From positions 1 through 38,669 of the forward strand of contig VBKG01000305.1 of the NCBI GenBank assembly GCA_005879585.1: a stretch of DNA of 38,669 nucleotides. The letters run 5' to 3'. The notes beneath the pieces were generated by a model that saw only the letters and a list, made by a program, of their open reading frames with translations, did no database searches and was not told the DNA's origin. The position numbers and the translations under genes are program-made. Of this stretch, positions 14,132-16,874 are shown in pieces; the first letter of the stretch is position 1; each line of letters opens with the position of its first letter. The stretch comes from Deltaproteobacteria bacterium. GTDB taxonomy: Bacteria; Desulfobacterota; Binatia; DP-6.

Positions 14132-14872
14132 CTACAGGCGGCGTGGCGACGGCGTGCCGGTGCTGCCGCGCTTCAGACGCTTGCGCAGCAGCGGGATGGC
14201 GTTGATCTTGAGCGGCCGGAGCAGGTCCCAGTAAATGCCACGTGGCCGTGGGTGCGCCGGGCGCGTGGCGATGACCTCGCTCGGGGTCACGAGGAAGTCG
14301 ACCGGCACGTCGTGCGGCAGCATCGTGACCCGCTCCGCCACGATCTGCACCGGATGGACCGTCGTGAGAATCGGCGTCGACTCGCGGACCTTGCCTTCCT
14401 CGCGCAGGAGGCCGTACTCGAGATCGCAATAGCCGCCGCCCTTGCCGAGCCGCGCTCCGTCGCGCCCGACCCCGACCGAGCCGCACACCACGAGGTCGAC
14501 GGGCCGCATCTCGCGCGGCGAGACGGCACGTCCGTACCGACATGCCCCCGCGATGCTCCCGGCCAGCATCGCCTTCTTGCCGAGACGCTGCGGATCGATC
14601 TCGATGAAGCACTTCTCCGTCCGGAGCCGCGGCACCGCCATATAGATGATCTTGCCCTCGGCGAGTGCCAGCCGCCGTACGGCGAGCTGCGGGGCGTCGG
14701 GGTTGATCTTCACGACGAGCGCGCGACGCCACACGGCCATCTCGCGCAGGAGGTGCGCCGCTTGCTCGGCGCCGACGAAGTTGGGAACGCGGCCGTACGC
14801 GCCGGGGAACCGCGCCGCACCCTCGCGTTGAATCGTCAGCCAAACCTTTTGGCGGATCTCCGCCTTCGTCAT
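14132..14872 (-). CDS. MTHFSD-like member of the 5-formyltetrahydrofolate cyclo-ligase family
   Basis: A 246-residue protein of the 5-FTHF cyclo-ligase superfamily. The nucleotide-binding signature is RLGKGGGYCDLEYG rather than the usual RLGYGGGYYDR, and the C-terminal half (VTPSEVIATRP, PRPRGIYWD) resembles what I remember of the MTHFSD branch more than classical YgfA/Fau. Cyclo-ligase activity is therefore possible but not assured. ATG at 14872 is preferred; an in-frame GTG at 14893 would add seven residues. It begins 24 bases after the trmI stop and is followed closely by the SDH-type protease. No folate gene is nearby. Confidence 0.78.
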   Translation of the reverse strand: MTKAEIRQKVWLTIQREGAARFPGAYGRVPNFVGAEQAAHLLREMAVWRRALVVKINPDAPQLAVRRLALAEGKIIYMAVPRLRTEKCFIEIDPQRLGKKAMLAGSIAGACRYGRAVSPREMRPVDLVVCGSVGVGRDGARLGKGGGYCDLEYGLLREEGKVRESTPILTTVHPVQIVAERVTMLPHDVPVDFLVTPSEVIATRPAHPRPRGIYWDLLRPLKINAIPLLRKRLKRGSTGTPSPRRL

Positions 14873-14896
14873 CGCGAGTCGGCGCGCGTGCACACA

Positions 14897-15754
14897 TCAA
14901 CCGGCGTGCACGTGCTCATCGGTACTACAGGGTTCTGGCCGAGTCAATTCAGAATTCCCCGCGAGCCGCCGCGCGAAGACCAGAAAGCCGGTGTGCGCGA
15001 CCATGCGATGCGCGGGACGGATGCTGCGGTCGTGGACATGCCAGAAGCGGGCCAGCGTCTCGAGCGTCTCGACCGCGCCGAAGCAGCCGGCGCGCAGCGC
15101 GTCGACGAGCTGCTTCACCTGCAGCACGGTCGGCAGGAACGCCGTGAGGACACCACCGGCTCGGAGCGTCCGGGCCACCACGTCGAGTAGCCGCCACGGC
15201 TCCGCGAGGTCGACGATCAGCCGATCGACGTCACGTTCGTCGAGACCTTCGAACGCGTCCGCGACGCGCAGCGTCCAGTTGTCGGCTGCGCCGTGGTAGC
15301 GGGCGACGTTCTCGCGCGCCAGCGTCGCGAAGTCGTCGCGGGCCTCGTACGAGGTGAGCCGTCCGGTCGGGCCGACGGCGCGGAGGAGCGCCAGCGTCAG
15401 CGCTCCAGGCCCGGTACCGACCTCCACCACGTGCATGCCCGGGCCGATGTCGCCCCAGAGGAGGATCGGCCCCGCGTCCTTCGGATAGATCGGCTCGGCG
15501 CGCCGGGGCAGGCTCGGAATGAGCTGGGCGTAGGTCGGTCGCACGACGAGCAGGCGCTCGCCGCCCGCGGTCTCCACCCGGGACCCTTCCGGGAGGCCGA
15601 TGACGGCGTCGCACGGGACCGCCTGCCCCCGGACCGAGATGCGGCCGCCGCGCCGGAGGATGCGGAGGTACGAGCGCTCCTTGCGGTCGATGAAGACGAC
15701 GGGGTCCTGATCGCGAAGCACGCTGCGCTCGCCGGGCGGCGCGGTCGGCGTCAC
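14897..15754 (-). CDS. trmI: tRNA (adenine-58-N1)-methyltransferase TrmI
   Basis: SAM-dependent enzyme that methylates A58 in the T-loop of tRNAs, 285 residues. An N-terminal small beta domain (about 15-75) precedes the class I methyltransferase core. The SAM motif is HVVEVGTGPGALTLAL (about 107-122), and the TrmI family motif appears as DLAEPW (usually DLPEPW). The GPILLWGDIGPG segment just upstream of the SAM motif is also typical. The GTG start overlaps the ttuA stop (GTGA). In Thermus, m1A58 promotes thiolation of U54, which fits the upstream ttuA and ttuB genes. Confidence 0.92.
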   Translation of the reverse strand: MTPTAPPGERSVLRDQDPVVFIDRKERSYLRILRRGGRISVRGQAVPCDAVIGLPEGSRVETAGGERLLVVRPTYAQLIPSLPRRAEPIYPKDAGPILLWGDIGPGMHVVEVGTGPGALTLALLRAVGPTGRLTSYEARDDFATLARENVARYHGAADNWTLRVADAFEGLDERDVDRLIVDLAEPWRLLDVVARTLRAGGVLTAFLPTVLQVKQLVDALRAGCFGAVETLETLARFWHVHDRSIRPAHRMVAHTGFLVFARRLAGNSELTRPEPCSTDEHVHAG

Positions 15755-16677
15755 GCAGGCAGCGCGGAGGACGTGCGGGCGCGCCGGTTCTCGACCTCGC
15801 GCACCAGGCTGCAGAAGGAGCAGAGCACGCCATATGCGGGCATCCCGCAGCCCGCGCACTCCATCGGCTCGCGCTGCTCGACCGCCGCGAAGGCCGGCTG
15901 GGCGGAGCGCAGGAACTCCTTCACGAAGGCGAGCTTCGTGCCGGGGCTGGCGACCTCGAGGCGGTCGAGGGCGCCCTTGTAGAGGAGCTGCGTGGCACCC
16001 GCGGCGTTCGGACACTCGTCGACGATGTAATCGATGCCGCGCATGAACGCGTAGACCGCCGTCTCGTATTCGCTCGTCAGGTAGAGCGGCTTCACCTTGC
16101 GGACGAACTTCGGGTGCGACGGTGGCAGCACCGGCCGCTGGCGCGCCAGGTGGTCCTTCTGCCAGCGCAGCACGTTGCCGAGGAGCCGCGCCGCCTCGTC
16201 GTCGAGGTTGTGCCCGGTGGCGAGCACGTCGAAGCCGCCCGCGAATGCCGCGGCGTCGAAGTAGTGGCGCTTCATGGTGCCGCACGCCGCGCACGGCGCG
16301 CGCCGCGTCGCCGCCGCGACGCCGGGCACGGCGAGCTGCTCGTCCTCGAGCTTCACGACCCGTAGCGGGAGTCCGCGTGCGGCGGCGAACTGCTCGACCT
16401 TCTCCCGCGAGCGGTCGGAGTACTCGCCGATGCCGAGCCCGAGGTAGAGCCCCGTCGTGTCGTGACCGAGGTCGGCGAGCATGTCCCACAGCGCGAGGCT
16501 GTCCTTGCCGCCCGAGACCGCGACCAGGATCCGCTCGCCGGCGACGAGCATACGCTGCGCGTCGATCGCGCGCTCCACCTGCCGGCGGAAGAAGAACAGG
16601 TAGCAGGGCCGGCAGAAGGCGGTGTTGTGCGCGCGGAGCTGGACCTCGGCCCGCGCACCGCACCGCCGGCACTTCAT
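15751..16677 (-). CDS. ttuA: TtuA-like tRNA 2-thiouridine synthetase
   Basis: PP-loop ATPase that adenylates a tRNA uridine and inserts sulfur, 308 residues. An N-terminal zinc finger has C3, C6, C22 and C25; the PP-loop is SGGKDS (55-60); a C-terminal zinc finger has C274, C277, C286 and C289. C129 and C132 (in APCAACG) and C222 (in DECPNA) sit almost exactly where Thermus TtuA has its three 4Fe-4S ligands. That, a TtuB-like carrier upstream and trmI downstream point to 2-thiolation of U54 in the tRNA T-loop. The related Ncs6/NcsA group acts on U34, so position 54 is inferred. The ATG overlaps the ttuB stop by one base. Confidence 0.9.
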   Translation of the reverse strand: MKCRRCGARAEVQLRAHNTAFCRPCYLFFFRRQVERAIDAQRMLVAGERILVAVSGGKDSLALWDMLADLGHDTTGLYLGLGIGEYSDRSREKVEQFAAARGLPLRVVKLEDEQLAVPGVAAATRRAPCAACGTMKRHYFDAAAFAGGFDVLATGHNLDDEAARLLGNVLRWQKDHLARQRPVLPPSHPKFVRKVKPLYLTSEYETAVYAFMRGIDYIVDECPNAAGATQLLYKGALDRLEVASPGTKLAFVKEFLRSAQPAFAAVEQREPMECAGCGMPAYGVLCSFCSLVREVENRRARTSSALPA

Positions 16678-16874
16678 CAGGCGCCCCCGGAGATGACCGC
16701 GCGGATCTCGATCTCGTCGCTCTCGTCGACGACGTCGCCTTCCGTCAACAGGAGCTCGCCGCGGATTACCATGGCGGTCCCGGGCAGGATGCCGAGCTCG
16801 GCGAGCAGCGCTCCGACCCGGCGTGGGCCGCGGAGCTCGACGGTCCGACGCTGCGGGCGCAGATGGACGCGCAT
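16677..16874 (-). CDS. ttuB: TtuB-like ubiquitin-fold sulfur carrier ending in Gly-Gly-Ala
   Basis: Small beta-grasp sulfur carrier of 65 residues, the usual size for ThiS/TtuB. From memory, the pattern around VIRGELLLTEGDVV and the C-terminal AVISGG resembles Thermus TtuB. Carriers of this kind normally end at Gly-Gly so that the terminal carboxylate can be thiocarboxylated; here one alanine codon follows (GGG GGC GCC TGA), so removal of Ala would be needed. ATG at 16874 is chosen because an in-frame GTG at 16898 lies upstream of the predicted transcription start. First gene of the operon. No E1-like TtuC or rhodanese TtuD is in the window. Confidence 0.85.
   Translation of the reverse strand: MRVHLRPQRRTVELRGPRRVGALLAELGILPGTAMVIRGELLLTEGDVVDESDEIEIRAVISGGA

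Follow-up and report, generated by a model that had tools for sequence, protein, structure and literature searches.

The window, by which we mean the whole stretch of 38,669 nucleotides that was analyzed, encodes a compact ttuB-ttuA-trmI operon whose products are predicted to modify the T-loop of tRNA. As encoded, the sulfur carrier TtuB ends with Gly-Gly-Ala, not with an exact Gly-Gly. We propose that the codons for the diglycine also serve as the ribosome-binding site of the next gene, and that the alanine is later removed. Taken as a whole (a T-loop modification operon, a trimmed pro-TtuB, and a Shine-Dalgarno sequence within the diglycine codons), this is the best explanation, with a probability of roughly 0.8. 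The pathway is a known one, and its new feature appears to be that precursor processing is tied to gene overlap. The original prediction described the genes correctly but missed what is unusual about them, the alanine past the diglycine. The features of the locus are:

16677..16874, minus strand: ttuB, a 65-amino-acid ubiquitin-fold sulfur carrier with the C-terminus ...ISGG-A (PDB match to Thermus TtuB, E = 2.9e-10)
16683..16688, minus strand: the diglycine codons of TtuB (GGG GGC), with a Shine-Dalgarno-like GGGGG, 6 nt ahead of the ttuA start
16680..16682, minus strand: a GCC codon, the one-residue (Ala) tail past the diglycine
15751..16677, minus strand: ttuA, a putative [4Fe-4S] PP-loop tRNA U54 2-thiolase of 308 amino acids (from its 292 bits against Thermus TtuA, its residues, and its place in a tree)
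14897..15754, minus strand: trmI, a probable tRNA (m1A58) methyltransferase with a GTG start (GCD14 and TrmI-like_N domains, PDB matches to TrmI)
14132..14893, minus strand: a 5-formyltetrahydrofolate cyclo-ligase family gene, the downstream neighbor (Pfam PF01812, 82 bits)

As predicted, the three genes form one overlapping unit. ttuB runs from the ATG at 16874 to a stop codon at 16679-16677 and shares one base with ttuA (TGATG), which runs from the ATG at 16677 to a stop codon at 15753-15751. ttuA and trmI share four bases (GTGA), and trmI runs from the GTG at 15754 to a stop codon at 14899-14897. The cyclo-ligase family gene starts at GTG 14893 or ATG 14872, so it lies 3-24 nt past trmI. 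(Beyond it is a gene for an SDH-type Clp-fold protease.) The source genome is a 99%-complete draft of 5.28 Mb in 625 contigs, and among named records Deltaproteobacteria bacterium DP_26 comes closest, with a TtuA that is 89% identical. When the three-gene order was looked for in relatives, it proved to be the rule in the clade of this class: ttuB is immediately upstream of ttuA in all 31 class loci that were read, as well as in DP_26 (L003), and trmI is immediately downstream of ttuA in every class locus read but L113, a short locus that breaks off close to where ttuA ends. This order is kept well beyond chance.

The identification of the second gene product as a TtuA-like thiolase was borne out. 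Its scores are 292 bits with Thermus TtuA, 245 bits with Pyrococcus PH0300, and 87 bits with the U34 thiolase NcsA, and it is 48% identical to Thermus TtuA and 26% identical to NcsA/Ncs6. The Pfam domain TtuA_LIM_N is above its cutoff. The NCBIfam equivalog of Pyrococcus TtuA matches at 252 bits, below its cutoff of 450 bits (an annotation threshold for a Pyrococcus-type model), yet this is by far the best score among all models. A check of the residues confirmed the Fe-S ligands (C129, C132, and C222) and both zinc fingers (Cys 3/6/22/25 and Cys 274/277/286/289), as claimed. (Thermus TtuA has His25 in the N-terminal zinc finger, where this protein has Cys25.) The PP-loop residues S55 and D59 are also present, as are the catalytic K136 and D160 (Lys137 and Asp161 in Thermus numbering). 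Lys137 is required to take sulfur from TtuB (PMC7138817), and eukaryotic Ncs6 has an arginine at this position (PMC3980101). Among 114 aligned sequences, 113 have lysine there, and the sole exception is NcsA. Hence NcsA/Ncs6 share the PP-loop, Fe-S, and zinc-finger architecture with the window protein, but differ in having Arg rather than Lys and in falling on the other side of the tree. In that tree (72 sequences), the window protein lies within an 18-row clade of its class (support 100/100), which is nested in a group with Thermus and Pyrococcus TtuA. It does not cluster with NcsA; the separating branch has support of 100/97. Because of the length of the NcsA branch, we base this split on the scores and residues as well as on the tree.

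The other two identities held up as well. The best PDB match of TtuB is Thermus TtuB (residues 3-64), and its gene lies ahead of ttuA in the class loci; Pfam ThiS is sub-threshold. TrmI has GCD14 (88.1 bits) and TrmI-like_N (26.2 bits), both above cutoff, its top PDB matches are Rv2118c and TrmI enzymes, and it is the single trmI match across its own genome. Overall, the sequence comparisons support the assignments of TtuB, TtuA, and TrmI.

We then consider the alanine tail. E1 enzymes act on the carboxyl group of the last glycine, so a residue past it is expected to block activation. Nevertheless, many TtuB relatives have a tail, usually of one or two residues (GGAA, GGAL, GGRA, GGAQ, and others, with no consensus), and some tails reach 10 residues. 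Exact Gly-Gly ends are found in Nitrospira, in Thermus, and in many relatives. The diglycine is retained even in tailed proteins. A literature search turned up no report of a TtuB that is encoded with residues past Gly-Gly. (In six relatives from the same phylum, L081, L082, L084, L085, L098, and L100, TtuB-like proteins beside a clear TtuA end in SRG or SKG instead of SGG.)

Two associations suggest how the tail arises. First, tails go with gene overlap: they are present at 35 of 36 loci at which ttuB and ttuA overlap, versus 14 of 56 without overlap (p = 6e-13). This held after clustering at 80% (22/23 versus 8/34, p = 5e-8) and at 65% (8/9 versus 3/10, p = 0.02). Second, the first glycine codon is GGA or GGG at 60 of the 71 loci whose diglycine is no more than 15 nt from the ttuA start, versus 2 of the 21 where it is farther away (p = 4e-10; p = 2e-6 after 80% clustering, and still p < 0.05 at 65%). 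The background share of GGA plus GGG in ttuA genes is 37%. At overlapping loci, the commonest spacing from the diglycine to the ttuA start is 6 nt, which can come from a two-residue tail with a 4-base overlap or, as in the window, from a one-residue tail with a 1-base overlap. Where the diglycine is distant, several loci have a separate Shine-Dalgarno-like site. If the diglycine codons of the near group are changed in silico to GGCGGC, the median anti-Shine-Dalgarno pairing weakens from -9.5 to -5.0 kcal/mol.

Thus, the diglycine codons probably double as the Shine-Dalgarno sequence of the overlapping ttuA. A Shine-Dalgarno sequence needs a few nucleotides before the start codon, so the tail would be there as a spacer. 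Alternatively, the tail might have arisen by neutral drift or from gene compaction alone, and the glycine codons might have no role in ribosome binding. Compact genomes often show gene overlap, and the tree offers few independent pairs for the tail and codon tests (4:0 and about 6.5:0.8 in the expected direction, too few for p < 0.05). But drift or compaction is unlikely given how differently near and far loci choose the first codon, relative to the background, and given that several far loci have a Shine-Dalgarno-like site of their own.

If TtuB is made as a precursor, then something would have to trim it. A candidate is a JAMM protein that is encoded elsewhere in the same genome (P0004; motif HSHP-x7-S-x2-D, HSHPRIGAYFSGED). 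It has a Prok-JAB domain (65.5 bits), and its nearest NCBIfam model is the archaeal "desampylase", at 59 bits versus an equivalog cutoff of 130, so we do not class it as a desampylase. Its gene (L165:7332-7796) lies between reading frames whose translations resemble ketopantoate reductase and a TIM barrel; no sulfur-carrier gene was seen in this neighborhood. JAMM enzymes are known to cut ubiquitin-like precursors after Gly-Gly: CsRpn11 cuts the Caldiarchaeum CsUb-pre (PMC6043591) and DRJAMM cuts the Deinococcus MoaD-MoaE (PMC8832034). In addition, Mec is a hydrolase of the CysO-Cys adduct (PMC3227635), and in Thermus about half of the tRNA thiouridine is lost when the JAMM gene is deleted (PMC3980101).

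From these activities and the effect of the Thermus deletion, trimming of TtuB by P0004 seems the likeliest step, if with less confidence than the Shine-Dalgarno role. Other JAMM-processed ubiquitin-like precursors are HcyS-Ala, with HcyD, in Wolinella, and QbsE, with QbsD. TtuB resembles all of these precursors in having residues past Gly-Gly and a JAMM protein in the genome; it differs in that its tail is tied to gene overlap and a diglycine Shine-Dalgarno, and cleavage here is predicted. A clear JAMM match was found in 30 of 33 genomes with a tailed TtuB versus 20 of 31 with an exact ending. We also considered the presence of JAMM as proof of a specific partnership with tailed TtuB, and rejected it: JAMM proteins are in 90 of 95 good class genomes, with or without TtuA. 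Being near-universal, they do not single out TtuB as the substrate, and P0004 is a candidate only.

Two other fates of the tail need to be weighed. A general carboxypeptidase, rather than a JAMM enzyme, might remove it. Most tails are just one or two residues without a consensus, and three of the tailed genomes have no clear JAMM, which would fit. This is nonetheless unlikely, as JAMM enzymes do the cutting in the known cases of such precursors, some tails reach 10 residues, and MoaD in this class continues into long extensions. Still less likely is that the tail stays on and that TtuB works untrimmed, perhaps as a docking partner with sulfur coming from free sulfide. Organisms without a TtuB homolog may use free sulfide (PMC8584467), and there are the few tailed genomes that lack a clear JAMM match. 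But the diglycine is kept despite the tail, an E1 is present in the genome, and the CsUb and MoaD-MoaE precursors are both cut at this point.

Other sulfur carriers of the class vary in how they end. ThiS has an exact diglycine end in every case. CysO-like carriers end in GG, GGA, GGC, GGR, GGV, or GGRV, and MoaD has tails or long extensions, apparently MoaE. In at least two relatives (L183 and L186), the long extension of MoaD continues in frame past PPVSGG; it looks like a fusion of MoaD with MoaE, and this too would have to be cut after Gly-Gly. In several class genomes, a CysO-like carrier with variable residues past Gly-Gly lies no more than a few kb from a ThiF-family protein (G092:C10 (L217), G304:C135, and G000:C585 (L211)).

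What would the operon make? MnmA was found in all 29 genomes tested, including the window's own, so thiolation of U34 should be independent of TtuA. The same genome encodes TrmFO (614 bits), and m5s2U54 is therefore the expected product. (TrmFO was not found in one Acidimicrobiales, one Centralia, and one Rokubacteria genome among those tested, so these are expected to have plain s2U54 or another methylase.) Away from the operon is a rhodanese-ThiF E1 fusion of 403 amino acids, which could act as TtuC plus TtuD. In our proposed pathway, this rhodanese-E1 would adenylate the C-terminal glycine of TtuB, once JAMM has trimmed the alanine, and the glycine would then be converted to a thiocarboxylate. 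The [4Fe-4S] cluster of TtuA would receive the sulfur of this thiocarboxylate, and TtuA would adenylate U54 and swap O2 for sulfur. TrmI would methylate A58. In Thermus, m1A58 promotes the thiolation of U54 (PMC7912444, PMC6418473). The output of the operon would be s2U54 (as m5s2U54, given TrmFO) and m1A58.

We consider m5s2U54 plus m1A58 very likely in this organism, because of the residues and grouping of TtuA, the presence of MnmA for U34, and the presence of TrmFO, the rhodanese-E1, and JAMM. The proposal of coordinated s2U54 and m1A58 formation is thus consistent with TtuA's side of the split, with MnmA covering U34, and with the link in Thermus, although the position is predicted. The counterparts of the Thermus m5s2U54 pathway are all here: the catalytic residues of TtuA, the ISGG of TtuB, TrmFO, E1, rhodanese, JAMM, and TrmI. 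Unlike the TtuA/TtuB/TtuC/TtuD pathway of Thermus thermophilus, ttuB, ttuA, and trmI overlap within a single operon, the Gly-Gly of TtuB is followed by a residue, the E1 and rhodanese are fused in one protein, and there is no sign of a thermophile.

How tightly are the genes associated across genomes? TtuA is in 47 of 145 class genomes (34 of the 95 good ones). Every one of the 95 good class genomes has TrmI, as a rule in one copy, which led us to reject TrmI as a TtuA-dependent gene. Three further class members (families f4 and f5; L228, L229, and L230) have a distinct, more Thermus-like ttuBA, with no trmI within the 3.5-4 kb read around it; this looks like a separate acquisition. Outside the class, trmI-linked cassettes are found in Actinomycetota (including lake lineages), Nitrospirota (Manganitrophaceae), Centralia "Bacillota", one MAG of Acidobacteria and one labelled Chloroflexi, and other families of the phylum to which the window belongs. 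The cassette is no peculiarity of a single lineage but is widespread over several phyla. In Rokubacteria and Nitrospira, TtuA is present, usually along with ttuB, and no trmI was seen in the DNA examined around it. (We found no report on TtuA in Nitrospira in a literature search.) To explain trmI linkage on the tree takes five changes or more, with some short loci among those counted.

These patterns bear on another possibility, that TtuA thiolates U34 or another uridine and that trmI is merely a chance partner in the operon. The two genes are clearly separable, as only a third of the good class genomes have TtuA and as ttuBA does not adjoin trmI in Rokubacteria and Nitrospira. But trmI linkage recurs in several distant clades, MnmA is in every genome tested, and TtuA has the TtuA-type lysine and tree position, so we regard a U34 role with chance linkage as very unlikely.

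The original prediction also held that such a unit is usually a heat adaptation, and m5s2U54 has been described in a review as thermophile-specific and "not from mesophiles" (PMC6313347). This is not supported, because the carriers come from soil, groundwater, and lakes and include Nitrospira (habitats were taken from record titles, not growth data), and because reverse gyrase was above cutoff in none of the 36 TtuA-bearing genomes tested. The window's own bacterium is of a soil type, and these tRNA-stabilizing tools have been ascribed to heat-loving microbes. Centralia, the source of some carriers, is a heated soil site. Even with those carriers, a present or past thermophilic lifestyle is the most improbable reading that we considered.

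Because TtuB-TtuA(-TrmI) is present in Nitrospira, Rokubacteria, Actinomycetota from lakes, and soil lineages, the "not from mesophiles" statement can be tested directly, and some of the non-thermophilic carrier groups can be cultivated. More broadly, we put at even odds the idea that many bacterial TtuBs are pro-TtuBs, with a diglycine Shine-Dalgarno and with JAMM clipping forced by overlap, and that s2U54 is common in non-thermophilic bacteria. If so, gene overlap itself would create the need for processing of a ubiquitin-like precursor. The tails of TtuB suggest a simple origin for such processing: a ribosome-binding site within the diglycine codons would force the addition of residues that a peptidase then clips.
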